From Bradyrhizobium sp. LMTR 3 (GTDB lineage Bacteria; Pseudomonadota; Alphaproteobacteria; Rhizobiales; Xanthobacteraceae), in NCBI RefSeq assembly GCF_001693485.1, contig NZ_MAXC01000005.1:1-64000 (forward strand): a stretch of 64,000 bases of DNA, given 5' to 3'. The position numbers and the translations under genes are program-made. Below are positions 8,216-36,753 of the stretch, one piece after another (the stretch's first letter is position 1; every line of letters begins with the position of its first letter). The notes beneath the pieces are model-generated. The model saw only the letters and a program-made list of their open reading frames with translations. It made no database searches and was not told where the DNA came from.

Positions 8216-9367
8216 ATGCTCCCATCGCAGCGCGCCCGGTTCGAGATACCGCGCCAGATCTGCTACCTGAATGCCGCCTCTTACAGCCCGCTGCCGATTC
8301 GAACGCTGGAGGCCGGCCGCGCCGCGGTTCTCCGCAAGGGCGCGCCGTGGACGCTCGAGGCCTCCTTCGCCAACCAACAGCATGAACGCGCGCGCCTTGC
8401 TGCCGCCCGGCTGATCAACGCCGAAGCCGCCGATATCGCGCTGATTCCCTCGGTCAGTTACGGCGTTGCGACCGCCGCGAAGATGCTGCCGATCACCCGC
8501 GGCACGCGCGTGATCGTGCTGGAGAACGACCACTCCTCGCCGGTGCTCGAATGGCATACGCGGGCCGAGGCGGAAGGGTTCGCGGTCGAGACGATTCGGC
8601 AACCCGACGATGGCGATTGGACGTCGGCGGTGGTTGCCGCGATCGAACGATCCGGCGCACCACCGGTCAGCCTGGCCTCGATCTCATCGGTGCACTGGTC
8701 GGACGGTGGGTTGATCGACGTCGACAAGGTCGGCACGGCACTCCGGCAGCGGAGCGCAGCATTTCTCGTCGACGCGACGCAAAGCATTGGCGTGCTGACG
8801 ACCGACGTGAAGCGTCTCGACCCGGATTTTGTGGTCTTCCCGACCTACAAGTGGCTGCTCGGGCCCTACGGTCGCGCCTTTCTCTATGTTGCAAAACGCC
8901 ATCAAGGCGGTATCCCGCTGGAGCAGACCGCGTCCGGCCGTCGCAACGTGCGCGCCGAGAACGCGGTCTATTTCACGGACGTCGGTTACGTTGGCGATGC
9001 GCGGCGCTTCGACATGGGCGAGCGCGATCATTTCATCTCGATGGAGATGGCATCGATCGGCATGGAGATGATGGACGAATGGGGAGCGCCGACCATTGCG
9101 CAACGTCTCGCGATGCTGACGGAGCGGATCGCGCAAGGCATACGCGACATCGGCGTCCACGTTCCCGAACCTCATCTGCGAGCGCCGCATATCGTGAGCC
9201 TCGCCTTCAAGGGCGGAATGCCGGCGGGCCTCGTCGAAGGACTGGCAAGCGAAGGCGTCTATGTCGCACAGCGCCTGGGGCGCCTGCGTGTGTCGCCGCA
9301 CGTCTATAATGACGAAGCCGATGCCGACCGGTTCGTTGAGGTTTTGGGCAGGCGGCTGCGGGGCTGA
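8216..9367 (+). CDS. class V (cysteine desulfurase-like) PLP aminotransferase
   Basis: A 383-residue fold-type I PLP enzyme. Residues 15-40 read YLNAASYSPLP, the usual N-terminal substrate loop of class V enzymes. SSVHWSDGGLIDVDKVG and FLVDATQSIGVL (near 185) hold the Asp that contacts the pyridine nitrogen. The Schiff-base Lys is in FPTYKWLLGPYG near residue 210. No catalytic Cys loop of true cysteine desulfurases is obvious, so an aminotransferase, lyase or kynureninase-like role is more likely. The ATG at 8216 is preferred over a GTG 20 codons upstream. It is convergent with the BVMO gene. Confidence 0.85.
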   Translation: MLPSQRARFEIPRQICYLNAASYSPLPIRTLEAGRAAVLRKGAPWTLEASFANQQHERARLAAARLINAEAADIALIPSVSYGVATAAKMLPITRGTRVIVLENDHSSPVLEWHTRAEAEGFAVETIRQPDDGDWTSAVVAAIERSGAPPVSLASISSVHWSDGGLIDVDKVGTALRQRSAAFLVDATQSIGVLTTDVKRLDPDFVVFPTYKWLLGPYGRAFLYVAKRHQGGIPLEQTASGRRNVRAENAVYFTDVGYVGDARRFDMGERDHFISMEMASIGMEMMDEWGAPTIAQRLAMLTERIAQGIRDIGVHVPEPHLRAPHIVSLAFKGGMPAGLVEGLASEGVYVAQRLGRLRVSPHVYNDEADADRFVEVLGRRLRG

Positions 9368-9370
9368 CCT

Positions 9371-9496
9371 GTAGGGTGGGCAAAGCCAACGGGTCGCGCA
9401 AATGCGCGCCCGATGACAGGCTCCGCGTGCCCACTATTCGTGCTATCGAATCGGAGAGATGGTGGGCACGGCGCTTGCGCGCCTTTGCCCACCCTA
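9371..9496. repeat. palindromic intergenic repeat, family A (copy 3)
   Basis: Long version of family A, nearly the same as at 5872-5994, again between two convergent genes. It begins four bases after the aminotransferase stop and ends about 10 bases before the BVMO stop. Confidence 0.85.
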
Positions 9497-9506
9497 CGGC
9501 AGCCGC

Positions 9507-11165
9507 TTAGGACGCCGCCAGCTTGCGCGGCTGCTCTGTCCGCTCCATCACAAATCCCTGATAGCCCTTGGCTACGACGTCATTGCAGATCTGCCGGTAG
9601 GGCCCGACGCCGCCGATATAGGGCATGAAGATCCGCGGCTTGCCCGGGACGTTGGCGCCCATGTACCAGGAATTCGCCTGCGGATAGAGCGTGCCGGAAG
9701 CGACCTCGTTGACATGGGCTACCCATTTGTCCTCGGCTTCGGTGGCGGCCTCCATCGTATCGAGCCCGCGATCGCGCATGTAAGCGAGACAGTCGGTGAT
9801 CCAGTCGACATGCTGCTCGATCGACACGATCATGTTGGACAACACCGACGGGCTACCGGGGCCGGTGACGACAAAGAGGTTGGGAAAGCCCGCGCTCATC
9901 AGGCCGAGATAGGTGCGTGGACCTGCCGCCCATTTCTGGTTCAGCGTCTGGCCGTCGCGGCCCCTGATATCGATCTTCGCCACCGATCCCGTCATGGCGT
10001 CAAAACCGGTCGCCAACACCAGAGCGTCGACTTCGTAGTTTTTGCCGGCCACACGCACGGCGTTTTCGGTGATCTCTTCGATCGGATTCGACTTGATGTC
10101 GACCAGCGTCACGTTTGAGCGGTTGAAGGTCGCGAAATAATCGGTGTCGATGCAGATGCGTTTTGAGCCGATCGGATGGTTGTTCGGTTGCAATAGTCTT
10201 GCCGTTTCCGGGTCCTCGACAATGCCGGCGATCTTCTCGCGAACGAAATTCGCAGCGGTGTCGTTGGCGGCTTTGTCGAGCGCAAGATTGTTGTAGACCG
10301 ACATGAAGGTAAGCCCGCCGTGATTCCAGCGCGCCTCGTACTTCGCGCGGCGCTCGTTGTCGCCGTCATCGAGCGCGCCGCGATCGGGCATCTCGGTGTA
10401 GATGCCGTTTTTCGCCACCTCGCGGGCGAAGCGCCGGATCTCGGGATAGTTGGCGCGGAATTTCTGCCGCTCTTGTTCCGTCAGCGGCGCATTGCGGGCG
10501 GGAATCGAGAAATTCGCGGTGCGCTGGAATACCGTCAGACGGCTCGCCTGTTCGGCGATGACCGGCACCGACTGAATCCCCGACGATCCCGTGCCGATGA
10601 CGCCGACGCGCTGGCCGGTGAAATCGACTTCCTCATGCGGCCAGTGGCCGGTGTGGTAGACCTTGCCCTTGAACCGATCGAGACCCTTGATGTCGGGCAT
10701 CCGCGCGTTCGACAGGCAGCCGGTGGCGAGCACGACGAATTTTGCCGACACCGTTTTGCCGTCCGAAGTCGTTACCGACCAGAGGGAGGTCGCCTCGTTG
10801 AACTCGGCACGATCGACGCGGGTGTCGAACTGGATGTCCCTTCGCAGATCGAAGCGGTCGGCGACGTGGTTGGCGTATTTCAAAATCTCCGGCTGCGGTG
10901 CATAGCGCTCGCTCCAGTCCCACTCCTGCTGCAGCTCTTCCGAGAACGAATAGGAATACTGCATGCTCTCGACGTCGCAGCGCGCGCCGGGATAGCGGTT
11001 CCAGTACCAGGTGCCGCCGACGCCCGAGCCCTGCTCGTAGACCCGCGCCGTCATCCCCTGTCCGCGCAAGCGGTGCAGCATGTACATGCCGGCAAAGCCC
11101 GCGCCGACCACGACGACGTCGTAGGCCTCGGGCGATTTGGCGGCGGCGGACGGCATGGCGGACAT
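9507..11165 (-). CDS. Baeyer-Villiger type flavin monooxygenase
   Basis: A 552-residue NAD(P)H- and FAD-dependent monooxygenase that inserts oxygen next to a ketone. The first Rossmann motif is VVVVGAGFAGMY (about residues 17-28), followed by GVGGTWYWNRYPGARCD. The BVMO fingerprint F-x-G-x-x-x-H-x-x-x-W-P is present as FKGKVYHTGHWP near residue 165, and the second Rossmann motif GVIGTGSSGIQ follows. This set of motifs separates it from N-oxidising FMOs. Start at 11165 has GGGAG about 8 bases upstream. Substrate (cyclic or linear ketone) is not predictable. It is divergent from the NMO-like gene. Confidence 0.93.
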   Translation of the reverse strand: MSAMPSAAAKSPEAYDVVVVGAGFAGMYMLHRLRGQGMTARVYEQGSGVGGTWYWNRYPGARCDVESMQYSYSFSEELQQEWDWSERYAPQPEILKYANHVADRFDLRRDIQFDTRVDRAEFNEATSLWSVTTSDGKTVSAKFVVLATGCLSNARMPDIKGLDRFKGKVYHTGHWPHEEVDFTGQRVGVIGTGSSGIQSVPVIAEQASRLTVFQRTANFSIPARNAPLTEQERQKFRANYPEIRRFAREVAKNGIYTEMPDRGALDDGDNERRAKYEARWNHGGLTFMSVYNNLALDKAANDTAANFVREKIAGIVEDPETARLLQPNNHPIGSKRICIDTDYFATFNRSNVTLVDIKSNPIEEITENAVRVAGKNYEVDALVLATGFDAMTGSVAKIDIRGRDGQTLNQKWAAGPRTYLGLMSAGFPNLFVVTGPGSPSVLSNMIVSIEQHVDWITDCLAYMRDRGLDTMEAATEAEDKWVAHVNEVASGTLYPQANSWYMGANVPGKPRIFMPYIGGVGPYRQICNDVVAKGYQGFVMERTEQPRKLAAS

Positions 11166-23978: not shown

Positions 23979-25256
23979 TCAGCGCATCAGCTTCAAGGCA
24001 TCGGAGAAAAATTCCGCCCCGCCGAAATTGCCTGATTTCAGCGCAAGCAGCATCTCGCCGTCCTCGGCGCCGACCGCGCGCAAGACCGGCACGCCTGCAG
24101 CGATTTCTTCGCCGACGAGAAAGCCCGGAATCCGCAGCCGATCGACGACGGCGCCCGAAGTTTCACCACCGGCGACCACCAATCGCCGCACGCCTGACCG
24201 CACCAGGCCTTCGGCGATATCGGCCATCGCCTGCTCGATGGCATGTCCGGCTGCATCGCGGCCATGTCGAGATTGCAGAGCTGCAACCTGGTCCGGCGTC
24301 GAACTGCTGGCGATCAGGATTGGACCATCGCTGATTCGGTCGCTCGCCCAGGCCAGTGCGCGGCGCGCCTCTGCCGGCCCCGCGATTATCTGCTCGGGAT
24401 CGAGATGCAGCACGGCCATGGTCTTTTCGGCATTGGCAATCTGCGCCAGGGTCGCCTGCGAGCAGCTCCCCGCAAGGCACGCAGCCGGTCCGCCGACCGG
24501 CGTGCCGGACACCGCGCTCGCGGAAGCCGCTTTGACCTTGCCGGAGGCAACCAGCGCCCGGGCAAGCCCGAGGCCAATGCCGGATGCGCCGACGGACAGC
24601 CGGTGATCCAGCGCGACGGCGCCGATGGTTTCCAGATCGCGGTGAAAGACCGCATCGATGATGGCCGCGCCGATCCCCTTTCCCGCCAGCTCCGCGAGAC
24701 GTCCGCGAACCGCCTCCGCGCCGCGCGTGAGGGTCGCGAGATCGACCAGCCCGACCTGCGTCCGGCTCTGGCGCGCCAGCACCCGCACCAGATTGGAATC
24801 ACGCATCGGGTTGAGCGGATGATCCTTCAGCGGGCTTTCGTTCAGCGGCACGGCCCCGACGAACAGGTTGCCTTGATAGACGGTGCGGCCGGTTTCCGGA
24901 AAGGCCGGCGTCACCAGCACGATCGCCTCGCCGGAGTCGGCGCGCAGCGCGTCCATCACCGGGCCGATATTGCCGGCGTCGGTGGAATCGAAGGTCGAGC
25001 AGATCTTGAACAGCACGTGACCGGCGCCGCGGGCGCGCAGCCATTTTTCGGCGGCGCGCGAACGGTCCACCGCGACGCCGGCCTCGATCGAGCGGCTCTT
25101 GAGCGAGATCACGACCGCATCGACCTCCGGCAGCGCCAGATCGTCTGATGGCACGCCGATGGTCTGCACCGTGCGCAGGCCCTGACGCGTCAGCGTGTTG
25201 GCGAGATCGGAAGCGCCGGTGTAGTCGTCGGCGATACAGCCAAGGGATAGTTTCAC
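23979..25256 (-). CDS. otnK: 3-oxo-tetronate 4-kinase (four-carbon acid sugar kinase, DUF1537)
   Basis: A 425-residue ATP-dependent kinase that makes 3-oxo-tetronate 4-phosphate in threonate and erythronate breakdown. The N-terminal substrate domain starts LGCIADDYTGASDLANTLTR with the conserved Asp pair, then FKICSTFDSTDAGNIGPVMD and VTPAFPETGRTVYQGNLFV. The C-terminal nucleotide-binding part carries VAGGETSGAVVDRL. Its ATG overlaps the otnI stop by four bases (ATGA), so the two are translationally coupled. The family, the length and all neighbours agree. Confidence 0.93.
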   Translation of the reverse strand: MKLSLGCIADDYTGASDLANTLTRQGLRTVQTIGVPSDDLALPEVDAVVISLKSRSIEAGVAVDRSRAAEKWLRARGAGHVLFKICSTFDSTDAGNIGPVMDALRADSGEAIVLVTPAFPETGRTVYQGNLFVGAVPLNESPLKDHPLNPMRDSNLVRVLARQSRTQVGLVDLATLTRGAEAVRGRLAELAGKGIGAAIIDAVFHRDLETIGAVALDHRLSVGASGIGLGLARALVASGKVKAASASAVSGTPVGGPAACLAGSCSQATLAQIANAEKTMAVLHLDPEQIIAGPAEARRALAWASDRISDGPILIASSSTPDQVAALQSRHGRDAAGHAIEQAMADIAEGLVRSGVRRLVVAGGETSGAVVDRLRIPGFLVGEEIAAGVPVLRAVGAEDGEMLLALKSGNFGGAEFFSDALKLMR

Positions 25257-26035
25257 GGCTTTGCTCCGGCATAGGGCTTGAACCAGCCGAGGCCATCGGT
25301 GGTTTTGCCGCGCGGGTTATATTCGCAGCCGACGAAGCCGCCATAGCCGAGCCGGTCGAGTTCAGTGAACAGGAACGGATAGTTCAGCTCTTCGCCGTCA
25401 GGCTCATTGCGCGAGGGAATGCTGGCGATCTGGACATGGCCTGTTATCGGCATCATCTCGCGCAGCCGCATGGTGACGTCGCCGTGGATGATCTGGCAGT
25501 GATAGATGTCGAACTGCAGTTTCAGATTCAGTATCTTCAGTTCGGTGATCAGGTCGCGCGCGAACGAAAAATCGTTGAGAAAGTAGCCGGGCACATTGCG
25601 CGGATTGATCGGCTCGATCACGACGTCCAGCCCATGGGGCGCGTAGAACTCGGCTGCCCATGCCACCGACTTGTAGAATTGTTCGACGGCCTTCGTGCTG
25701 CTGCGATCGGCGATTCCCGCCATCAGATGCAGCCGCTTGACGCCGGTCGCCTTCGCGTAAGGCAGCGCGGTCTCCAGGCTTCGCTTGAGATCGTCAAAGC
25801 GCTCCGGCAATGCGGCAAAACCCTTTTCGCCGGCGTCCCAATTGCCCGGCGGCAGATTGAACAGCGCCTGCGTCAGACCATTGCGCTTCAGCCGTTCGCC
25901 GACAGCCTCGGCCGGATGATCATAGGGAAACAGGAATTCGACCGCGGTGAAGCCCGCTCTTGCCGCCGCATCGAAGCGGTCGAGGAACGGGACCTCGGTG
26001 AACATCATGGAGAGATTGGCGGCGAAACGCGGCAT
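25253..26035 (-). CDS. otnI: 2-oxo-tetronate isomerase (hydroxypyruvate isomerase family)
   Basis: A 260-residue TIM-barrel isomerase that turns 2-oxo-tetronate into 3-oxo-tetronate. It begins MPRFAANLSMMFTEVPFLDR, the family start. The metal and catalytic Glu region is IEPINPRNVPGYF (near residue 145), followed by LQFDIYHCQIIHGDV and the final GFVGCEYNPRGKT. It is the middle gene of ltnD-otnI-otnK, 26 bases after ltnD and overlapping otnK by 4 bases. Assignment to OtnI rather than Hyi rests on this neighbourhood. Confidence 0.92.
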   Translation of the reverse strand: MPRFAANLSMMFTEVPFLDRFDAAARAGFTAVEFLFPYDHPAEAVGERLKRNGLTQALFNLPPGNWDAGEKGFAALPERFDDLKRSLETALPYAKATGVKRLHLMAGIADRSSTKAVEQFYKSVAWAAEFYAPHGLDVVIEPINPRNVPGYFLNDFSFARDLITELKILNLKLQFDIYHCQIIHGDVTMRLREMMPITGHVQIASIPSRNEPDGEELNYPFLFTELDRLGYGGFVGCEYNPRGKTTDGLGWFKPYAGAKP

Positions 26036-26061
26036 CGAAGGTCCCCTTCTTGATCTTGCTC

Positions 26062-26976
26062 TTACTTCGGCTCGCCCGGCAGATGCGTGCCGGTGACTTT
26101 TGCATACATGCGCGCGACCGAGGCATCATCGTCGCGGCCCATGCCGGCGGCCGACGTCATCAAAAACATCTGCAAGGCGGCAGCGGAGACCGGCACCGGG
26201 AATTTCGCCGAACGCGCCATGTCCTGGATGATGCCGAGATCCTTGACGAAGATATCGACCGCGCTGCGCGGCGCGTAATCGCCGTCAAGCACGTGCGGCA
26301 TGCGGTTCTCGAACATCCAGGAATTGCCGGCGGACGCCGTGATCACCTCGTAGACTTTTCGGATGTCGAGGCCCTGCTTGGCGGCGAATGCGATCGCCTC
26401 GGAAGCGGCGGCGATGTGCACACCGGCCAGCAACTGGTTGATCATCTTGAACGCGGCGCCCTGGCCGGCGGCGTCACCGAGCTCGTAGAGCTTTGCCGCC
26501 ATTGCGTCCAGCGCTGGCCGTGCCTTGGCAAACGCGGCCGGACTGCCGGATGCGAGGATGGTGAGCTCACCCTGCGCCGCGCGCTGCGCGCCGCCGGAGA
26601 TCGGCGCGTCGAGGTAGTGCCGGCCGGTTTCTTCCAACTGTTTGGCGAGACGCCGCGCGACATCGGGGTCCATGGTGGCGGAGGAAATGAACACCGCGCC
26701 TTTCGCCAGCGTTTCCGCAACGCCGCTGGCGCCAAACAGGATGGTCTCGGTCTGGGCGGCGTTGACGACGACGCTGACGACGATGTCGGCCGATTTTGCG
26801 GCTTCCGCCGGCGTTACCGCGCCCTTGCCGCCATCGGCGACGAACCGCTTGACCGTGTCAGCCGAAACGTCGCACCCGGTGACCTCTAGCCCCGCGCGGC
26901 GCAGCGAGGTCGCCATGCCATAGCCCATCGAGCCCAGCCCGATGACGGCGACGCGCGGTTTCGCGGATTCTGGCAT
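26062..26976 (-). CDS. ltnD: L-threonate dehydrogenase (beta-hydroxyacid dehydrogenase family)
   Basis: A 304-residue NAD-dependent dehydrogenase that oxidises L-threonate (or D-erythronate for close relatives) at C2 to 2-oxo-tetronate. The Rossmann motif is VAVIGLGSMGYGMATSL (residues 9-25). The substrate loop is DAPISGGAQRAAQGEL near 120, and the catalytic Lys is in GAAFKMINQLLAG near 170. Start MPESAKPRV at 26976 has GAGGAA 7 bases before it. It is the first gene of the operon and 120 bases from the divergent otnC, so one promoter region should serve both. Confidence 0.92.
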   Translation of the reverse strand: MPESAKPRVAVIGLGSMGYGMATSLRRAGLEVTGCDVSADTVKRFVADGGKGAVTPAEAAKSADIVVSVVVNAAQTETILFGASGVAETLAKGAVFISSATMDPDVARRLAKQLEETGRHYLDAPISGGAQRAAQGELTILASGSPAAFAKARPALDAMAAKLYELGDAAGQGAAFKMINQLLAGVHIAAASEAIAFAAKQGLDIRKVYEVITASAGNSWMFENRMPHVLDGDYAPRSAVDIFVKDLGIIQDMARSAKFPVPVSAAALQMFLMTSAAGMGRDDDASVARMYAKVTGTHLPGEPK

Positions 26977-27096
26977 GCGGCGGTTCCTCGATGGTTTCTG
27001 TTCAACGGCCCATTCGGCCGGCGGCTTGGCGTCCTTGCGTATCACGGCTTGGCCGCGCTGCCAAAGCGTGAGACAAGGCGGAAAAGAGGTCGGTCC
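26977..27096. promoter_or_regulatory. divergent control region ltnD / otnC
   Basis: 120 bases between two divergent genes of the same pathway. It contains both ribosome binding sites. I could not see a convincing operator, and no DeoR or GntR regulator gene is next to it. Confidence 0.5.
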
Positions 27097-27756
27097 ATGA
27101 GCGAAACAAGGCTCCGCGAGGAAATCTGCCGCTTCGGCCGCTCGCTGTTCGAGCGCGGGCTGACGCCGGGATCCTCCGGCAATATCAGCGTGAAGCTCGA
27201 TGACGGCGGCTGGCTGGTGACGCCGACCAATGCCTCGCTCGGTTTCCTCGATCCGGCCCGAATGTCGCGGCTCGGGCCCGACGGACGGCTGGTATCCGGC
27301 GACGCGCCAACCAAGGAAGTGCCGCTGCACACCGCGCTCTATCAGACCCGCAGCGCCGCGCGCGCCGTGGTGCATCTGCATTCGACCCATTCGGTGGCGC
27401 TGTCGATGCTGCCCGAGATCGACCCCCGCGCCGCGCTGCCGCCGATGACGGCCTATTACGTGATGAAATGCGGGCACACTGCGCTCGTACCCTACTATCG
27501 CCCCGGCGATCCGGCCGTCGCCGACGCCATCAAGGGACTGGCCGGGAAGTACTCCTCCGTGCTGCTCGCCAATCACGGCCCGGTGGTTTCGGGCGACACG
27601 CTGGAAGCGGCGGTGTTCGCCATGGAGGAACTGGAGGAGACCGCGAAGCTCTATCTGCTGCTGCGCGGATTGAACCCGCGGTATCTGTCGCCGGCGCAGG
27701 TGGAGGATTTGACTGAGGTGTTCGGGTTGACGCTGCCGGAGAACGGGCACTCGTAG
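27097..27756 (+). CDS. otnC: 3-oxo-tetronate 4-phosphate decarboxylase (class II aldolase family)
   Basis: A 219-residue zinc enzyme that decarboxylates 3-oxo-tetronate 4-phosphate to dihydroxyacetone phosphate. The phosphate-binding site is GLTPGSSGNISVKLDDG (near residue 25). The catalytic Glu is in TKEVPLH (near 75). Zinc ligands are in VHLHSTHSVAL (near 98) and LLANHGPVVSG (near 160). AAGAGGT precedes the ATG at 27097 by 6 bases; a TTG 16 codons upstream is less likely. Its TAG stop at 27754-27756 is formed by the first bases of the family F repeat. Confidence 0.92.
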   Translation: MSETRLREEICRFGRSLFERGLTPGSSGNISVKLDDGGWLVTPTNASLGFLDPARMSRLGPDGRLVSGDAPTKEVPLHTALYQTRSAARAVVHLHSTHSVALSMLPEIDPRAALPPMTAYYVMKCGHTALVPYYRPGDPAVADAIKGLAGKYSSVLLANHGPVVSGDTLEAAVFAMEELEETAKLYLLLRGLNPRYLSPAQVEDLTEVFGLTLPENGHS

Positions 27757-27839: not shown

Positions 27840-28544
27840 TCACAGCCCCAGATAGGCCCTCCTTACATCCGGATTGACGCTGATCTCCGCCGCGCTGCCC
27901 TGCATCAGCACGCGGCCGGTTTGCAGGATGTAGGCGCGGTCGGCGATTTCGAGGCATTCGGACATGCGCTGTTCGACGATCAGCACCGTCATGCCGGCGT
28001 CGCGGATGCGTTTGACGGCCTGGAAGATTTCATCGACCAGCTTTGGCATGATGCCCTGCGACGGCTCGTCGAGCATGAGTAGCCGCGGGCGCGTCATCAG
28101 GGCGCGGCCGATCGCCAGCATCTGCTGCTCGCCGCCGGAGAGCGTTTCGGCGCGCTGCTCCAACCGCTCTTGCAGGCGCGGAAACAGCTTGAACACGAGA
28201 TCAAGCGGTGCCTCGCGGTTCGCTTCGCCCCGATAGAGGTAGCTGCCGAGCCTCAAGTTGTCGCGCACCGAGAGACGCGGAAACAGCCGGCGGTTTTCCG
28301 GCACATAGGCGATGCCGCGCGAGGTGATGATGTGCTGCGCCATGCCGTCGATGCGGGTGCCGTCGAACGACACGCTGCCGGAGCGAGGTCGCTCGGCGCC
28401 CGCAATCGATTTCAGCAGCGTCGACTTCCCGGCGCCGTTGGCGCCGGCGACGCAAACGATTTCGCCCTTTGCCACCTCGATCGAGACTGCCGAGATCGCG
28501 ACCAGCCCCTGATAGGCGGTGGTGACTTCATGCACCGACAGCAT
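27840..28544 (-). CDS. livF: branched-chain amino acid type ABC transporter, ATPase LivF
   Basis: A 234-residue ATPase of a HAAT-type importer. Walker A is GANGAGKST (residues 34-42), the signature is LSGGEQQ, and Walker B is LLMLDEPSQGI. It starts 17 bases inside the end of livG and is the last gene of the transporter operon. The substrate is set by livK, not by this protein. Confidence 0.95.
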   Translation of the reverse strand: MLSVHEVTTAYQGLVAISAVSIEVAKGEIVCVAGANGAGKSTLLKSIAGAERPRSGSVSFDGTRIDGMAQHIITSRGIAYVPENRRLFPRLSVRDNLRLGSYLYRGEANREAPLDLVFKLFPRLQERLEQRAETLSGGEQQMLAIGRALMTRPRLLMLDEPSQGIMPKLVDEIFQAVKRIRDAGMTVLIVEQRMSECLEIADRAYILQTGRVLMQGSAAEISVNPDVRRAYLGL

Positions 28545-29259
28545 GACGGTCTCCCAGATAGGCGGTGATGACTTTCGGGTCGCGAACCACGTCCGCGGGC
28601 TTGCCCTCGACCAGCACCTTGCCGAGATCGAGCACGATGGCGCGGTCGACGAGCGGCATCACGATTTCCATGACATGCTCGACCATCAGCACGGTGACGC
28701 CGGTATCGCGCACCTTGCGCACCAGTTCGACGCCGGTCTTGGCTTCGACCGGCGTCAGGCCGGTGAGCACCTCATCCAGCAGCAGCAATTTCGGTTCGGT
28801 CGCGAGCGCACGCGCCACCTCGAGCCGGCGCTTTTCGGACGGGACGAGATCGCTGGCCAGCACATTGGCGCGCGGACCAAGGCCACAAAACTCCAGCACC
28901 TCATGCGCCTTGCGGCGGGCATCGCGCATCACGGTGGTGCGGACCAGCGCGCCGACGATGACATTGTCGATCACGGTCATGGTCTCAAAACTTTTCACGA
29001 CCTGGAAGGTGCGGCCGATGCCGCGCTGGCAGCGCTCCGCTGCCGGCAATGCGGTGACGTCCTCGCCGTCAAAGATGATCGAGCCTTGGGTCGGCGGCAG
29101 CACGCCCGCGATCAGGTTGAACAGTGTCGACTTGCCGGCGCCGTTCGGGCCGATCAGGCCGACGATCTCGCCGCGCCCAACCGAGATCGAGACGTCGCTG
29201 TTGGCGATCAGGCCGCCGAAGCGCTGCCAGACGCCGCGCGTTTCCAGAAGAGGCGTCAT
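28528..29259 (-). CDS. livG: branched-chain amino acid type ABC transporter, ATPase LivG (atypical signature)
   Basis: The second ATPase of the importer, 243 residues. Walker A is GPNGAGKST (near residue 36) and Walker B is LLLLDEVLTGLTP. Where the ABC signature LSxGQ should be, the sequence reads DLVPSEKRRLEVARAL, with no Gly pair, and the Walker B Pro is Val. AAGGAGG precedes the ATG at 29259 by 7-8 bases. The ATG overlaps the livM stop by four bases (ATGA). A dimer with LivF would have one standard and one altered ATP site. Confidence 0.93.
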   Translation of the reverse strand: MTPLLETRGVWQRFGGLIANSDVSISVGRGEIVGLIGPNGAGKSTLFNLIAGVLPPTQGSIIFDGEDVTALPAAERCQRGIGRTFQVVKSFETMTVIDNVIVGALVRTTVMRDARRKAHEVLEFCGLGPRANVLASDLVPSEKRRLEVARALATEPKLLLLDEVLTGLTPVEAKTGVELVRKVRDTGVTVLMVEHVMEIVMPLVDRAIVLDLGKVLVEGKPADVVRDPKVITAYLGDRHAVGA

Positions 29260-30263
29260 CGGACAGCCTCCTTGCGCTTGGCCGCAGACAGTCCTGCAAG
29301 GCCTTTGAACGAAAACAGGCCGATCAGCCCCTGCGGCCGCGCCAGCGAGATCGCGATGATCAGGCCGCCATAGACGATCAGGTCGACACCGCGACCGGAG
29401 CCCCCGACATAGGACCGCGTCAATTCGGTGAGCGGGATCAGGATCACCGCGCCCAGCATCGGACCCCATAGCGTGCCGATGCCGCCGAGCACCGCAGGCA
29501 ACGCCATCAGCAGCGAGAACTGAAAGCCCATGACGCTCTCGGGATCGATAAAGTAGACGAACTGCGCATAGAAGCTGCCGCCGATGGCGACCAGGAATGC
29601 CGATACCGCCGCCGCGCCCATCTTGGAATTGAACACGTCGACGCCGAGGCTTTCAGCGGCTTCCGGATTGTCCTTCACCGCGCGCCACCAATAGCCCCAT
29701 TTGGAATCCTCCAGCCACCAGGTGACGAACCAGGCGACGCAGGCAAGCGCCAGCGCGAAGTAGAAGTATGGCAGCTTGCTGCGTGGGAACTGGAATTTCA
29801 GCCAGCTATCGCCACGCGCCGGGATTTCGATCCCCATCGCAGCACCAGCCCAATCCCAGTTGTGGAACAGCAGCAGCCCGATCTCGGCAATGACGATGGT
29901 GGCGATGACGAAGTAGTGCCCGCGCAGCCGGAAGCAGGGATAGCCCAGCGCCATCGCAATCAGCGCGGAGATCACGCCGCCGCCGAGCATGCCGAACCAT
30001 GGCAGCACACCGAACTTGGTAAACAGCAGCGCGGTGGTATAGGCGCCAAGTCCGAAGTAGAGCGCGTGGCCGAGCGAGATCTGCCCGCAATAGCCGGAAA
30101 GGATATTCCAGCTTTGCGACAACGCACCCCACATCAGCGTCAGCACCATGATGTTCTGGACGTAAACGTCTTTGACGAACAGCGGAACGGTGGCCGCAAT
30201 CGCGGCGAGAACACAGGCAACGATGAGGTCGCGGCGGCGGCGTTCTGCGAAAGCGGTATCCAT
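29256..30263 (-). CDS. livM: branched-chain amino acid type ABC transporter, permease LivM
   Basis: A 335-residue inner-membrane permease with about nine or ten hydrophobic segments. It contains the family motif WNILSGYCGQISLGHALYFGLGAY (near residues 52-75) and RAVKDNPEAAESLGVDVFNSK, the loop that contacts the ATPases. Start MDTAFAERRRRD at 30263 shares one base with the livH stop. Charged N-terminal residues precede the first membrane segment. Confidence 0.94.
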   Translation of the reverse strand: MDTAFAERRRRDLIVACVLAAIAATVPLFVKDVYVQNIMVLTLMWGALSQSWNILSGYCGQISLGHALYFGLGAYTTALLFTKFGVLPWFGMLGGGVISALIAMALGYPCFRLRGHYFVIATIVIAEIGLLLFHNWDWAGAAMGIEIPARGDSWLKFQFPRSKLPYFYFALALACVAWFVTWWLEDSKWGYWWRAVKDNPEAAESLGVDVFNSKMGAAAVSAFLVAIGGSFYAQFVYFIDPESVMGFQFSLLMALPAVLGGIGTLWGPMLGAVILIPLTELTRSYVGGSGRGVDLIVYGGLIIAISLARPQGLIGLFSFKGLAGLSAAKRKEAVR

Positions 30264-31141
30264 CACATCGATCCGAACAGGCCGCGCGGCCGGACAAAAA
30301 CCACAAGGAGATAGACGGCATAGATGCCGACCGCCTTGAGCGACGGCGGCAGCAACATTGCGGTCGTGGCCTCGACGAGGCCGACGATGATGCCGCCGGC
30401 GAACGCACCAAACACGCTGCCAAAGCCGCCGAGCGCCACCGTCACATAGGCAATCAGCGCAAACGAGGCGCCGACATCGGGATAGATGTAAAAGAAGATC
30501 GCCATGACCGCGCCGGCGAGGCCCACCAGCGCCGCGCCGAGGCCCCAGCCCAGCGCAAACACCTTGTTCTTGTCGATGCCGACCAGCGCCACCGCGCCGG
30601 CATCCTCGCGGGTCGCTTCCAGCGCGCGGCCGAAATCGGTGCGGTTGATGAAGAGATAGAGCGCGCCGAACGCTGCAATCGCCACCAGTGCCCCGACCAG
30701 TTGCGGCACCGGCAGGTAAATCCCGGCGATCGAGACAGTTTTGCCGCCGAGCCAGGAATGGGTGACGCTGCGATAGTCGGGCGTGAAGAAGTATTGTGCC
30801 AGGCCGCGCATGACGATGGCGAGGCCAAAGGTCGAGAAAATCTGCACCATGCCGGCATTGGCTTTCGCGCGCACGGCAAAGCGCACAATCAATAGATACA
30901 CGACGGCCCCGAACACGAACAGGGCGGCGGCGACCAGCGGTGCCGACAGCAAGGGATCGATCGCAAAGAACACGAACAGGAAGAACGTCGCGTACATCGC
31001 GATCATCAGGAATTCGCCATGGGCGAAGTTCACGACGTCCATCAGCCCGAAGATCAGCGCGAGGCCGACGGCGATGAGGCCGTAAAGCAGGCCCATGAGC
31101 AGGCCGCTCGCCAGGCTTTGGATGATGGTTTCGGCTGTCAT
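30263..31141 (-). CDS. livH: branched-chain amino acid type ABC transporter, permease LivH
   Basis: A 292-residue permease with about eight membrane segments. The family motif is LMDVVNFAHGEFLMIAMYAT (near residue 35), and the ATPase-contact loop is RALEATREDAGAVALVGIDKN. Start MTAETIIQSLASG at 31141 is chosen because the upstream in-frame part is translated repeat DNA. It is separated from livK by 167 bases that hold the family H repeat. Confidence 0.94.
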   Translation of the reverse strand: MTAETIIQSLASGLLMGLLYGLIAVGLALIFGLMDVVNFAHGEFLMIAMYATFFLFVFFAIDPLLSAPLVAAALFVFGAVVYLLIVRFAVRAKANAGMVQIFSTFGLAIVMRGLAQYFFTPDYRSVTHSWLGGKTVSIAGIYLPVPQLVGALVAIAAFGALYLFINRTDFGRALEATREDAGAVALVGIDKNKVFALGWGLGAALVGLAGAVMAIFFYIYPDVGASFALIAYVTVALGGFGSVFGAFAGGIIVGLVEATTAMLLPPSLKAVGIYAVYLLVVFVRPRGLFGSM

Positions 31142-31160
31142 GGGTATGCCCCCATCGCAC

Positions 31161-31277
31161 GTCGTCCCTGCGAACGCAGGGACCCATAACCACCGGAGTT
31201 GCATTTGAAGGAAGGGCGTGAGGCCACGATGAAACCGATGCTCCCCGGCGTATGGGTCCCTGCGTTCGCAGGGACGA
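31161..31277. repeat. palindromic intergenic repeat, family H, inside the liv operon
   Basis: GTCGTCCCTGCGAACGCAGG then GACCCATA at the left, and TATGGGTCCCTGCGTTCGCA then GGGACGAC at the right. Each arm is itself a small hairpin (CCCTGCG-AA-CGCAGGG). It lies between livK and livH. Confidence 0.8.
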
Positions 31278-31308
31278 CGCTGCGTTTGTGATGTCTCTCC
31301 AGAAGGCG

Positions 31309-32559
31309 TCAGCCTTTCTTCATCGGCCAGACGGCTTCGGCGATGGCGGCCTGCGGCGGGAAGATGGTGACGAACTTGCCGCCGATATATTGCAGCAGCA
31401 CCGGGTCGGCGTCGTTGTTCTGGCCCAACTCGTCGAACTTCACGCGCTTCCAGGGCATGATGGTCTGCTCGCCCGGGATGTCGGTGGCGACCAGCGCCTC
31501 GCGGATCTTCTCGCCGTCGGTCGACTTGGCGCGATTGATGGCGTCCGCCATCACCAACAGCCCCATGAACTGGCGCGAGGTGAGGTCGTTAAAATCCTTG
31601 CCCGACTTCTCCTTGAACATGGCGTTGACCTTGCCGACCATCGGCCGCTTGGCGGCGAGATCGAGCGAGAAGCTGCCGCGCGAGATCACGCCTTCGAGCT
31701 TGTCGCCGACCGCATCATACAGCGCCTTTTCGGAGAAGCCGGCGTTCTGCGCCACGATCGCGTTCGGCTTGTAGCCGAGCTCGGCCATGGTCTTGACCAG
31801 CAGGATACCGTCGGTGGTGTAGCTCGAGGGCATCAGCACGTCGGCATTCGCCGTCTTGAGCTGCTGTACTTCCGCCGACAAGGACGGCGAGTTGGAGCGG
31901 TACTTGATGTCGGAGATGACCTTGTAGCCACGCTCGGAGGCCAGCTTGAGCTGGGTGTTGGCGGAGTCGGTGCCGAAAATGGTGTCCTCGTGGAACAGCG
32001 CCAGCGTGTCGATCTTGGTGCCCTTCTTCTTCATCGCATCGAAAAAGTTGAACATCGCGGCCGAGAACATCTCGTCATGCGGCGCGGCGCGGAAATAGAA
32101 TTTGAGGCCGCGCTTGTGCAGGCTCGGCGAGGAATTGTCTGCCGAGATGAACGGGACCTGGTAACGCTCGCAGATCTGGCTGACGGTGACGGCAACCGCG
32201 CTCTGATAGGTGCCGATGACGGCGCAGACTTTTTCCTGGGTGATCAGGCGCTCGGTCTCGGCGCGGCCCTTCTGCGGATCGGCCTGATGGTCGGCGAAGA
32301 CGAGGCGGATCTTGGCGCCGCCGAGGCCGGGTAATCCCTCGCCCTTCGCAAGCGGCAAGTCGAAATCGTGATTCTTGTTGATGATGTCGAGCGCAGTCTC
32401 GAACGACTTCTGGGCGTCGACGCCCATCTGCGCACTGGCGCCGGAGAACGGATAGATGACGCCGATCACCACTTCGGACGTTTGGGCGCGAGCGGCGATC
32501 GGGCCGAGCGCAGCGGCAGCAGTAGCTCCAAGCAAGACGTTACGGCGCGTGATGTTCAT
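31309..32559 (-). CDS. livK: ABC transporter substrate-binding protein (LivK type)
   Basis: A 416-residue periplasmic binding protein of the type I fold. The N-terminus MNITRRNVLLGATAAAALGP has a twin Arg and hydrophobic stretch ending near ARAQ, a Tat-type signal. The mature protein starts VVIGVIYPFSGASAQMG. The pocket region includes CAVIGTYQSAVAVTVS and FISADNSSPSL. The usual S-x-x-T pocket residues are replaced by TYQSAVA, so the ligand may not be a branched-chain amino acid. It is 82 bases after the DUF1445 gene in the same direction. Confidence 0.94.
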   Translation of the reverse strand: MNITRRNVLLGATAAAALGPIAARAQTSEVVIGVIYPFSGASAQMGVDAQKSFETALDIINKNHDFDLPLAKGEGLPGLGGAKIRLVFADHQADPQKGRAETERLITQEKVCAVIGTYQSAVAVTVSQICERYQVPFISADNSSPSLHKRGLKFYFRAAPHDEMFSAAMFNFFDAMKKKGTKIDTLALFHEDTIFGTDSANTQLKLASERGYKVISDIKYRSNSPSLSAEVQQLKTANADVLMPSSYTTDGILLVKTMAELGYKPNAIVAQNAGFSEKALYDAVGDKLEGVISRGSFSLDLAAKRPMVGKVNAMFKEKSGKDFNDLTSRQFMGLLVMADAINRAKSTDGEKIREALVATDIPGEQTIMPWKRVKFDELGQNNDADPVLLQYIGGKFVTIFPPQAAIAEAVWPMKKG

Positions 32560-32641
32560 GGCGATATCCTTTGTGGGTCGGCAACTATCGATGAAACGGG
32601 CGAAGGGTACGGTAAAGCCTCAATGAGCAGCACGGGCTGCA

Positions 32642-33493
32642 TCAAAGCACGGCAAGCGCTTTGTTCCTGAGATCGGTCACCAGCATCAATCCGGGCGCAT
32701 GCGTGATCGCAAACGGCACCTTGGCGGCTGCGATCACCGATTGCGGCGTCACGCCGCAAGCCCAGAACACCGGAATTTCGTCGGCCTCCACCGGCACCGG
32801 ATCCCCGTAGTCGGGTTTGGCGAGGTCGGCGATGCCGATCGATTGCGGAAGACCGATATGGACCGGCGCACCGTGCACCGACGGAAAACGCGAGGTAATC
32901 TGTATCGCGCGTATCGCATCCGCCGGCTTGAACGGCCGCATCGTCACCACCATTGGACCGGCAAACGGACCAGCAGGGCTGCAGGCGATATTGGTGCGGA
33001 ACATCGGCACGCGCACGTCGCGCTCGATATGGCGGATCGGGAGACCTTCCTCCAGCAGCGCCTCTTCGAAGGAGAACGAGCAGCCGAGCACGAAGGCGAC
33101 GAGATCATCGCGCCAGTGCGCCATGATGTCGGTCGGCTCTTCGACGATTTCGCCGTCGCGCCAGATGCGATAGCGCGGCAGGTCGGTGCGGATATCGAGA
33201 TCGAGGCCGAGCGCGGGAATGCGGGGGTCGCCGACGTCGGACATGCCGATGATCGGGCATGGTTTGGGATTGAGTTGACAGAACCGGTGAAACGCGGCCG
33301 CTAACTTCTCGGGCAGAATCGCAAGATTGCCCTGGACGAAGCCGTTGGCCACACCCGCTGTGTGAGTAGCCATGCCGTTGCGGCACGCATGCCGGGCTGC
33401 CACGCTGGGCGATAAATCTGGCCTATCGCGGCCCGTAGTTTCCGTCCTCGCCAAGCCGGTCATCGTTGTCCCCGCTTCCATTCTTATCGACAT
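32642..33493 (-). CDS. DUF1445 / YcsI family putative hydro-lyase
   Basis: A 283-residue protein of the YcsI/DUF1445 family, which includes mammalian D-glutamate cyclase and bacterial proteins annotated as putative hydro-lyases. Residues [47 protein letters not shown] and the repeated [12 protein letters not shown] and [12 protein letters not shown] are family landmarks. Several in-frame ATGs (33493, 33481, 33463) are possible. It is the first gene before livKHMGF and divergent from a LysR gene. The reaction here is unknown; a cyclic amide or hydroxy acid is suggested by the neighbours. Confidence 0.85.
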
Positions 33494-33513
33494 CTACTCC
33501 CGCATATGGCTAT

Positions 33514-33563
33514 GATAATGTCTAATCGTCTTTTCTAATCAAATTCGATAAATACTAATTATC
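33514..33563. promoter_or_regulatory. candidate LysR operator between DUF1445 and LysR genes
   Basis: An AT-rich 90-base divergent region. TCTAATC occurs at 33521-33527 and 33534-33540, ACTAATT at 33554-33560, and the outer pair GATAAT / ATTATC at 33514 and 33558 is inverted. The layout fits a regulator binding several turns of the helix. Confidence 0.45.
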
Positions 33564-33583
33564 AACCTGCGGGCCGAGGGTGC

Positions 33584-34501
33584 ATGACTGATTTCAAGGC
33601 AATTGAGACTTTCATGTGGGTGGTGACGCTTGGCAGCTTTCGCGGCGCGGCCCAGAAGCTGAACACGACGCAGCCGGCGATTTCGCAACGGATCGCCCAA
33701 CTCGAGCGCGAGGTGGGCGTGAAGCTCTTGCAGCGCGACCGTCGCATGGTGCTGCCGACGCCGAGCGGACGGCAATTGATGGTCTATGCCGAGAAGCTGA
33801 TCGGGCTGCGCTCGGAAATGCTCGCCGTGGTCGGCGATCGCTCGGCGATGCGCGGCGTGCTGCGGCTCGGTGTCGCCGAAACCATCGTACACACCTGGCT
33901 GCCGCAACTGATCAAGAGCGTCAATTACGCCTACCCCAACCTCTCGCTCGAGATCGAGGTCGACATCACCTCGAATTTGCGCAACCGGCTGTTGGCGCAG
34001 GAGATCGAACTCGCCTTCGTGCTCGGCCCGCTGACGGCGCCGATGGTCAACAACCGGGCACTGTGCGATTATCCGGTGGGTTTTACGGCCAGCCCCTCGC
34101 TCGGCCTCGGCAAGCAGGAACTGACGCTGCACGATCTGGCGAAGTTCCCCATCATCACGTTTTCGCGCCGTACCCAGCCCTATGAGATCGTGCGCTCCCT
34201 GTTCAACCGCCCTGACCTGCCGCCGATACGGCTGCATGCCAGCGCCTCGCTCGCAACCGTGATCCACATGGCGATCGAAGGTCTCGGTATCGCCCTGATA
34301 CCGACTGCGATCGTCGAGGACGACATGGCAAACGGGCGGCTACAATTGCTGTCGACCAATCTGGAGTTGGCGCCGCTGACGTTTTCGGCAAGCTGGCTCG
34401 CCTCCCCCGACACGGTCGCGGTGGAGCGCGTGGTCGAACTTGCGGCCAGCCTGGCCCGCGGCGGCGTCATTGTTGACGCGCCGCCGCAGGCGCGTCATTG
34501 A
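33584..34501 (+). CDS. LysR-family transcriptional regulator
   Basis: A 305-residue regulator. The winged helix-turn-helix is at residues 1-60 (AIETFMWVVTLGSFRGAAQK then LNTTQPAISQRIAQLE), and the effector domain is from about 90 to 295. GAGGG lies 5 bases before the ATG. Transcribed away from the DUF1445-liv operon and followed at 56 bases by the carbamoylase-type hydrolase gene, it is the natural regulator of both. The effector is unknown. Confidence 0.93.
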   Translation: MTDFKAIETFMWVVTLGSFRGAAQKLNTTQPAISQRIAQLEREVGVKLLQRDRRMVLPTPSGRQLMVYAEKLIGLRSEMLAVVGDRSAMRGVLRLGVAETIVHTWLPQLIKSVNYAYPNLSLEIEVDITSNLRNRLLAQEIELAFVLGPLTAPMVNNRALCDYPVGFTASPSLGLGKQELTLHDLAKFPIITFSRRTQPYEIVRSLFNRPDLPPIRLHASASLATVIHMAIEGLGIALIPTAIVEDDMANGRLQLLSTNLELAPLTFSASWLASPDTVAVERVVELAASLARGGVIVDAPPQARH

Positions 34502-34557
34502 AATGACCGAACAAGAACGAATAATCGCGCCTGCCACCTGATCTCCCGGAACAGTGC

Positions 34558-35808
34558 ATGACCAAGATCGGCTCCAATCTGCAAATCGATTCTGCCCGCC
34601 TGTGGGGCACGATTCACGAAACCGCCAAATTCGGCGCGACACCGAAAGGCGGCGTGCGGCGGCTGACGCTCGGGCCTGAAGACAAGCAGGTGCGCGACTG
34701 GTTCCGCGAGCGGTGCGAGGCCGCAGGGCTGGAAGTGCATGTCGACGCGCTGGGCTCGATGTTCGGCCTGCGCAAGGGGCGCGACATGTCGAAGGCGCCG
34801 GTTGGGCTCGGCTCCCACCTCGACACGCAACCGACTGGCGGCAAATATGACGGCGTGCTCGGCACGCTGGCGGCGCTGGAAGTGGTGCGCACGCTCAACG
34901 ACGCGGGAATAGAAACCGAGACGCCGATCTGCATCTGCAACTGGACAAACGAGGAAGGCTCGCGGTTTGCGCCGGCGATGATGGCTTCCGCCGCATACGT
35001 CGGTGATTTCACCACCGACGACATTTTGTCGCGCAAGGACGCCGAGGGCGTCACGGTGGCGGAGGCGCTCGACAGCATCGGGTATCGCGGTGACGCGCCG
35101 GTGGGTCGCCAAAAATTCTCCGGCTTCGTCGAGCTGCATATCGAACAGGGGCCGATCCTGGAGGCCGAGAACAAGACCATTGGCGTGGTCGATTCCGGCC
35201 AGGGAGTTCTGTGGTACGACGGCAAGATCACCGGCTTCGAGAGCCATGCCGGCTCGACGCCGATGCCGCTGCGCCGCGACGCGCTGGCGACGCTGTCGGA
35301 AATCGTGCTGGCGATGGAAGCAATCGCCAAGAAGCACGGGCCGAAAGCGGTCGGCACCGTCGGCGAGGCGGTGATCGCCAATCCCTCGCGCAACGTCATT
35401 CCCGGCGAGATCGCCTTCACGGTGGATTGCCGCAGCGCGGATGCTGCCATCATGGACGCGCTGGACAGGGATTTGCGCGACGCGATTGCCGAGATCGCGG
35501 CGCGACGCAAGGTCGACGTCCAGTTCGACCTGATCTGGCGCAAACCGCCGACCCATTTCGATCCCAAGCTGGTGGATGCGGTGGAGAACGCCGCAAAAAT
35601 GCTCGGCTATTCGCATCGCCGCATCACCTCCGGTGCCGGCCACGACGCCTGCAACCTCAACACCGTGATGCCGACCGCCATGGTGTTCGTGCCCTGCAAG
35701 GACGGCATCAGCCACAACGAGCTCGAAGACGCCACCCAGGCCGATTGCGCGGCGGGCGCCAACGTGCTGATGCATACCGTGCTGGCGCTGGCCGGCGTCG
35801 CGTCCTGA
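34558..35808 (+). CDS. Zn-dependent N-carbamoylase / allantoate amidohydrolase family hydrolase
   Basis: A 416-residue M20-type di-metal amidohydrolase that splits N-carbamoyl amino acids, allantoate, ureidoglycolate or related ureido compounds. Metal ligands are visible in VGLGSHLDTQPTGGKYDG (near residue 83), NWTNEEGSRF (near 127) and ELHIEQGP (near 190). The dimer-domain residues are in GFESHAGSTPMPLRRDA, and the final SGAGHDACN plus CKDGISHNE complete the family pattern. There is no signal peptide, so it is cytoplasmic. It lies between the LysR and 2-hydroxyacid dehydrogenase genes. Confidence 0.9.
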   Translation: MTKIGSNLQIDSARLWGTIHETAKFGATPKGGVRRLTLGPEDKQVRDWFRERCEAAGLEVHVDALGSMFGLRKGRDMSKAPVGLGSHLDTQPTGGKYDGVLGTLAALEVVRTLNDAGIETETPICICNWTNEEGSRFAPAMMASAAYVGDFTTDDILSRKDAEGVTVAEALDSIGYRGDAPVGRQKFSGFVELHIEQGPILEAENKTIGVVDSGQGVLWYDGKITGFESHAGSTPMPLRRDALATLSEIVLAMEAIAKKHGPKAVGTVGEAVIANPSRNVIPGEIAFTVDCRSADAAIMDALDRDLRDAIAEIAARRKVDVQFDLIWRKPPTHFDPKLVDAVENAAKMLGYSHRRITSGAGHDACNLNTVMPTAMVFVPCKDGISHNELEDATQADCAAGANVLMHTVLALAGVAS

Positions 35809-35835
35809 TATCAAACCAAGAAACGGGGGAATGCC

Positions 35836-36753
35836 GTGCGCGGAGTTTTCGTCGACGCCAATGAATCGCTGGCCGTGATCTTTGAGCGGCTTCAGAACCC
35901 CGGCGATCCCGAGGTGCGGATCAACCGGAATCCCGATATCACCTCGGATCAATATCCCGGGATACTCGACGGCGCCGAGATCGCGATCGTCGATCACACC
36001 GCGCTGCCGATCGATATCGCGAAGAAATGCACGGGGCTGAAGCACGTGGTGTTTCTCGGCACCGGCGCACGCAGCTACATGAATCCGGAAGAGCTCGCCG
36101 AACTCGGAATCCAGGTCCACCTGATCAAGGGCTATGGCGACACGGCGGTCGCCGAATGCGCTGTTGCGCTAATGTGGGAAGGCGCGCGCGGACTTGCGAA
36201 AATGGATCGCGGTATCCGGGCCGGCAATTGGCTGCGCGATGACGGCATGCAACTGACCGGCAAGACGCTCGGCCTGATCGGCTTTGGCGGCATCGCCGCG
36301 GAAGTGGCGCGGATCGCGATCGGCTCGGGCATGCGCGTCGTCGCCTGGAACCGGTCGCCGAAAAAACATCCGAAAGTCGAGTTCGTCGATCTCGACGAAC
36401 TCTTGACCGAGAGCGACGTCGTCTCGATCCATCTGTTGCTCAACGACGAGACACGCGGCCTGATCTCGCGCGCCTGCATCGAGGCGATGAAACCCGGCGT
36501 CATCCTGATCAACACCGCACGCGGCGCCATCGTCGACGAGGAAGCGATGATCGAGGCGCTGAAATCGGGCCAGATCCGCCATGCCGGCCTCGACGTCTTC
36601 AACATCGAACCGCTGCCGGCGGATCATCCGCTGACCAAACTGCCGAACGTGACGCTGTCGGCGCATTCGGCGTTCCGCACGCCGGAAGCGAGCGAGAATC
36701 TGATGCGCGCGGCGTGGGAGCATTGTCGAAGGATTGTTGTGAAGGGGAAATAG
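35836..36753 (+). CDS. D-isomer specific 2-hydroxyacid dehydrogenase
   Basis: A 305-residue NAD(P)-dependent enzyme that interconverts a 2-oxo acid and a D-2-hydroxy acid. The Rossmann motif is LGLIGFGGIAAEVARIA (near residue 148). The catalytic Arg is in NTARGAIVDEEAM, Glu in DVFNIEPLPADHP and His in LSAHSAFRTPEAS. It starts with GTG at 35836, preceded by GGGGGA, 27 bases after the hydrolase stop, so the two genes are probably cotranscribed. A glyoxylate- or tartronate-like substrate would suit the context but is not shown. Confidence 0.9.
   Translation: MRGVFVDANESLAVIFERLQNPGDPEVRINRNPDITSDQYPGILDGAEIAIVDHTALPIDIAKKCTGLKHVVFLGTGARSYMNPEELAELGIQVHLIKGYGDTAVAECAVALMWEGARGLAKMDRGIRAGNWLRDDGMQLTGKTLGLIGFGGIAAEVARIAIGSGMRVVAWNRSPKKHPKVEFVDLDELLTESDVVSIHLLLNDETRGLISRACIEAMKPGVILINTARGAIVDEEAMIEALKSGQIRHAGLDVFNIEPLPADHPLTKLPNVTLSAHSAFRTPEASENLMRAAWEHCRRIVVKGK

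Follow-up and report, generated by a model that had tools for sequence, protein, structure and literature searches.

A DUF1445-livKHMGF cluster with a divergent LysR gene as a probable 5-oxoproline uptake module in Bradyrhizobium

Pyroglutamate (5-oxoproline) forms spontaneously when glutamate and glutamine break down. We analyzed a window of 64,000 nucleotides from Bradyrhizobium sp. LMTR 3 (contig NZ_MAXC01000005.1, positions 1 to 64,000), in which a DUF1445 gene and a complete Liv-type importer, livKHMGF, diverge from a gene for a LysR-family regulator. With a probability of roughly 0.8, these genes constitute a 5-oxoproline uptake module that is served by the 5-oxoprolinase PxpABC in trans. 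In the proposed mechanism, 5-oxoproline would be bound by LivK in the periplasm and brought into the cell by LivHMGF. LysR would probably respond to it through the site GATAA-N7-TTATC, and PxpABC, encoded elsewhere, would turn it into glutamate; we infer both the ligand of LivK and the direction of transport. The initial annotation of 27840-36753 had named these genes in this order, followed by a tartrate dehydrogenase, an SDR and an amidase, and open reading frame (ORF) lists and profile searches recovered every one of them in place. The features are as follows.

27840-28544, minus strand, LivF-type ATPase (ORF and comparison of neighbors)
28528-29259, minus strand, LivG-type ATPase, start approximate
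29256-30263, minus strand, LivM-type permease, start approximate
30263-31141, minus strand, LivH-type permease, with the start codon placed at 31141 from the sequence
31309-32559, minus strand, LivK-type substrate-binding protein, a relative of SAR11_0655 (8wch, L-pyroglutamate)
32642-33493, minus strand, DUF1445 / D-glutamate cyclase family protein (PF07286, NF003969; profile match)
33494-33583, no strand, divergent promoter region between DUF1445 and LysR (alignment of the window with 45 of its 80 relatives)
33547-33563, no strand, likely LysR operator GATAAATACTAATTATC, an exact GATAA-N7-TTATC (genome search and relatives)
33584-34501, plus strand, LysR-family regulator, probably 5-oxoproline-responsive (profile match, identity to LysR of outside DUF1445 clusters)
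34558-35808, plus strand, M20 hydantoinase/carbamoylase-family amidohydrolase, a lineage-specific addition
35836-36753, plus strand, D-2-hydroxyacid dehydrogenase family protein

The six leftward genes, from DUF1445 through LivK, LivH, LivM and LivG to LivF, likely form one operon, and LysR, the M20 amidohydrolase and the D-2-hydroxyacid dehydrogenase are read rightward.

For the ligand, the window LivK is 44% identical across the whole protein to SAR11_0655, whose structure 8wch holds L-pyroglutamate, and 8wch is also its nearest fold. A tree grouped it with SAR11_0655 and with the LivK of an alphaproteobacterial locus outside the lineage (L097, 729 bits against 8wch), apart from the leucine-type LivK, with support of 100/99. 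This clade left out E. coli LivK/LivJ and the recovered paralogs of the host itself, in a tree that lacked 11 of the 24 own LivK paralogs and held two identical rows. An altered pocket, the stretch TYQSAVAVTVS, had been read by the initial annotation as an argument against a plain branched-chain amino acid ligand. The conclusion was upheld, but for another reason. Since the stretch keeps the serine that corresponds to Ser79 of E. coli LivK in the alignment, which we take to hold the carboxylate, it is by itself no argument against an amino acid ligand. Judged from the alignment, the telling change is Gln271, which stands in place of Glu226 of E. coli LivK, presumably the ammonium site. A single-sequence fold of LivK was dropped at a predicted local distance difference test score (pLDDT) of 37.

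The regulator and its putative site offer a further line of evidence. An unusual AT-rich operator had been proposed for the divergent gap, and the gap (33494-33583) is indeed 59% A+T, compared with about 37% around it. It holds the exact GATAA-N7-TTATC, followed in the conserved block, on the DUF1445 strand, by ttgATtA.AAA..AcGATTAGACaTTAT. This motif occurs at 2 places in the 7,834,745 bases (7.83 Mb) of the host genome and its reversed control at 0; its presence in the divergent gap is more than chance. The other exact site (C52:20443-20459; L169, 1501-1517) lies in a 3-kb locus of two overlapping ORFs of at least 150 amino acids, one of which looks DnaJ-like at its end by eye, and it was set aside, with no metabolic gene in that locus. 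We then compared the top 80 of 350 DUF1445 loci in named records, counting in each case the contigs that reach far enough; most of these relatives are Bradyrhizobium, and within-genus synteny accounts for part of the conservation. The site was exact in 56/69 relatives with LysR, carried one mismatch in the remaining 13/69, and was found in 0/10 LysR-less relatives, the 80th relative offering too little sequence. In these relatives, the LysR gene and the site of the divergent gap are present or absent together.

Of 241 alphaproteobacterial genomes, 53 (own included) had a DUF1445 match, and 40 of the 58 outside matches were fetched. LysR lay within 2 kb of DUF1445 in 15 of these 40 loci, and the LysR proteins encoded with DUF1445 in clusters from other families (L084, L089, L090, L092 and L106) share 45-48% identity with that of the window. 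The 681 kb of the 40 loci contained five exact sites, all between LysR and DUF1445 (L089, L092, L098, L106 and L107), where the two genes stand in tandem and not back to back; a one-mismatch site occupied the same position in a further three of these 15 loci (L099, L100 and L101). We infer LysR as the protein that would bind GATAA-N7-TTATC, as well as its effector and a joint control of pxpBCA.

Gene content within 9 kb of DUF1445 in the 40 outside loci bears on the substrate: pxpA was found in 5, a fused OplAH-type gene in 6, DctM of a tripartite ATP-independent periplasmic (TRAP) transporter in 21 and LivK in 3. The recurrent arrangement combines LysR, DUF1445, a transporter (TRAP or Liv) and a 5-oxoprolinase of either kind, with OplAH-like matches of 26-34% identity (L093, L095 and L119) not counted as 5-oxoprolinase. 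All three outside Liv loci carry a lactam-opening enzyme, namely pxpABC in L097 and L090 and a fused OplAH/hydantoinase-type enzyme in L092. Because the nearest PDB relative of the fused enzyme is named N-methylhydantoinase, pxpABC is the only clean pointer to 5-oxoproline. In L090, a second binding-protein gene (9426-10190, PF00497-like by eye) sits between DUF1445 and pxpBCA without an adjoining permease ORF.

In the host genome, the importer and the 5-oxoprolinase are not in one cluster. PxpA is single there and belongs to a complete pxpBCA on another contig (C10), around which the ORFs listed included no transporter or DUF1445; PxpA was present in 59/60 Bradyrhizobium genomes. A site similar to the putative operator lies 127-205 bases before the start of pxpB in the own genome and 20 others (of 58 with PxpA). 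It is exact in 7 of these genomes, has no more than one mismatch in 20 and no more than two in the full set of 21, which shares common ancestry and does not amount to 21 independent cases. As background, a one-mismatch site outside the operator was seen in 16/3381 tiles of 420 bases from the relatives' loci. LysR was present in all 21 genomes, at 74-100% identity. On contig C50 of the host (G000:C50; L154, 6401-10125), a distinct pair of HyuA/HyuB-type genes lies close to a LivK paralog, possibly a second lactam or hydantoin system of the same genome.

Conservation of the neighborhood in other genomes, a check that the initial annotation had proposed, was confirmed for the gene order. Near DUF1445, the relatives kept LivK in 68/73, LysR in 66/74, M20 in 68/69 and the dehydrogenase in 65/69, as well as OtnC in 59/60, the tartrate dehydrogenase in 67/68, the SDR in 64/67 and the amidase in 54/65. 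In six loci (L031, L035, L042, L047, L048 and L052), DUF1445 is followed directly by OtnC without liv genes. Six LysR-less genomes (L031, L035, L047, L051, L053 and L056) were searched in full; 5/6 had no LivK at E 1e-80, and the sixth had one at 41% identity. These relatives retain DUF1445, together with M20 and the dehydrogenase wherever the contig reaches (that of L052 ends too soon). In one metagenome-derived locus, L036, LysR and the operator are missing, the liv genes remain and M20 is shortened (9193-10032).

The rightward enzymes bear on the model of the initial annotation, in which the importer would bring in a ureido compound or a cyclic amide such as a hydantoin, joined to a hydroxy acid, for breakdown by M20 and DUF1445. 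M20 exceeds the subfamily cut-offs of the hydantoinase/carbamoylase family (TIGR01879, 448 vs 204 bits; NF006769, 672 vs 452 bits) and falls below the equivalog cut-offs of AllC (TIGR03176, 267 vs 598 bits) and ErtE (NF058540, 359 vs 520 bits), while the dehydrogenase reaches the cut-off of none of the NCBIfam models among the matches listed. Orthologs of M20 (E <= 1e-140) occurred in 16/397 genomes, own included, all within the order of the host; of the four fetched from outside the family (L156-L159, 56-66% identical), 0/4 were with DUF1445. Two of their loci were read and showed a Dpp-type peptide transporter (L157) and an aminotransferase gene (L159) as neighbors, and we dropped these neighborhoods as uninformative on the role of M20. 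M20 was seen beside DUF1445 only in this lineage, and the M20 and dehydrogenase genes, which come after LysR here and not outside the lineage, are treated as an added, unassigned branch. The ureido model would draw on the M20 gene beside DUF1445 in 68/69 relatives, on the carbamoylase/allantoate amidohydrolase group to which NF006769 assigns it, on importer-less relatives that retain DUF1445, M20 and the dehydrogenase, and on the fused enzyme of L092, which could be a hydantoinase. However, a relative of M20 at 45% identity or more appeared in 0/40 outside DUF1445 loci, the importer and LysR recur there with a 5-oxoprolinase, all outside Liv loci carry PxpABC or the OplAH/hydantoinase-type enzyme, and the solved LivK relative holds L-pyroglutamate. 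We consider this model improbable; its cyclic amide cargo is supported (5-oxoproline was among the test compounds suggested), and the ureido compound linked to a hydroxy acid is not. It is likewise doubtful that in Bradyrhizobium DUF1445 and M20 replace the ATP-dependent 5-oxoprolinase in the cluster, giving a third, ATP-free way of opening 5-oxoproline or a closely related compound while the dehydrogenase draws the product onward.

Three other cargoes have to be weighed. DUF1445 (PF07286, 224 bits against a cut-off of 25), the sole copy found in the host genome, may interconvert 5-oxo-D-proline and D-glutamate, going by the family name. A module mainly for the D-enantiomer, in which imported 5-oxo-D-proline is opened by DUF1445 to D-glutamate, would fit this name and the joint occurrence of DUF1445 and the importer, both in this lineage and at L090, L092 and L097, but the crystal ligand of the LivK relative is the L form and PxpABC is described for 5-oxo-L-proline (PMC13274462), which makes such a module unlikely. 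Far less credible is an ordinary branched-chain amino acid importer. The Liv-type architecture and the names that several close relatives bear in their sources speak for it, whereas the clade without E. coli LivK/LivJ and the recovered own paralogs, the Gln in place of Glu226 and the L-pyroglutamate of the nearest structure speak against it. We give equally little credence to an importer of threonate or erythronate for the neighboring otn genes. The catabolic set OtnK, OtnI, LtnD and OtnC is complete at window 23979-27756, all four pass the NCBIfam cut-offs, OtnC is near in 59/60 relatives, and no transporter belonging to these genes was seen in the 24-44 kb part of the window. Since OtnC converges on LivF, though, the otn genes are a unit separate from the liv operon, and outside the lineage the importer adjoins a 5-oxoprolinase.

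Several observations weigh against the 5-oxoproline uptake module itself. An identity of 44% to 8wch is low, and the ligand can differ at such a distance. By the criteria used, no 5-oxoprolinase was found in 29/40 outside DUF1445 loci, and the TRAP receptors of two such loci matched 2pfy/2pfz, which we take to be DctP7/DctP6, weakly at 42-52 bits; at L092 the substrates may be hydantoins, given the nearest relative of its fused enzyme. Between LysR and DUF1445, a site with up to one mismatch was absent in 7/15 LysR-adjacent alphaproteobacterial loci, and all 10 LysR-less relatives are metagenome-assembled genomes according to their record titles. The own pxpB site has GATCA, not GATAA, as its left half. 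Among five LysR-less genomes with pxpB, 3/5 keep the GATCA form and 2/5 lost it, and therefore another regulator may use this site. Finally, the persistence of M20 and the dehydrogenase in relatives without the importer is unexplained by uptake of 5-oxoproline.

Apart from the genes considered so far, the gap between livK and livH contains two copies of a short GC-rich repeat in inverted orientation (31155-31190 and 31250-31280), with the sequence tatgggtccctgcgttcgcagggacgacg and the reverse complement of it. The pair looks like a dispersed palindromic element. Downstream of the dehydrogenase follow the tartrate dehydrogenase (TIGR02089, 619 bits, cut-off 470), the SDR and the amidase. The nearest named loci are from Bradyrhizobium, with DUF1445 99% identical.

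The label 'branched-chain amino acid transport' in databases would thus cover a Liv-type ATP-binding cassette (ABC) importer with a LysR regulator and a defined DNA site in Bradyrhizobium and other alphaproteobacteria; DUF1445 gains a testable pathway, and GATAA-N7-TTATC becomes a marker for locating the regulon. The structure 8wch had already shown a Liv-type protein that binds pyroglutamate. What this analysis adds is a member from Bradyrhizobium, the LysR site, which extends across several families, and the separation of the importer from the 5-oxoprolinase. Our literature searches turned up no Liv-type 5-oxoproline importer and, judged by titles and abstract openings, no work on a 5-oxoproline function of DUF1445. 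The 5-oxoproline transporters that the introduction and discussion of PMC13274462 describe are the carrier PxpT/YcsG of the amino acid-polyamine-organocation (APC) type and TRAP receptors, with no Liv-type importer named in these sections.

Compared with known systems, the closest is SAR11_0655, which shares 44% identity, the clade and, in a SAR11-like genome, livHMGF and DUF1445 as partners. There pxpABC adjoins the importer, whereas in the host genome it lies elsewhere and M20 and the dehydrogenase adjoin instead. YcsI and mitochondrial D-glutamate cyclase belong to the same DUF1445 family (PF07286), and YcsI is associated with pxp genes; for the window DUF1445, the link to 5-oxoproline comes by neighborhood. 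According to PMC13274462, pxpTABC of Corynebacterium glutamicum likewise unites dedicated 5-oxoproline uptake, a 5-oxoprolinase and a divergent regulator, but uses an NRAMP-like APC carrier and a GntR repressor where the window has a Liv-type ABC importer and LysR. The TRAP receptors DctP6/DctP7 of Bordetella pertussis, as described in the same source, also serve periplasmic 5-oxoproline capture near a eukaryotic-type 5-oxoprolinase, and TRAP genes accompany 21/40 of the fetched DUF1445 loci, although they represent a transporter class unrelated to the Liv importer.
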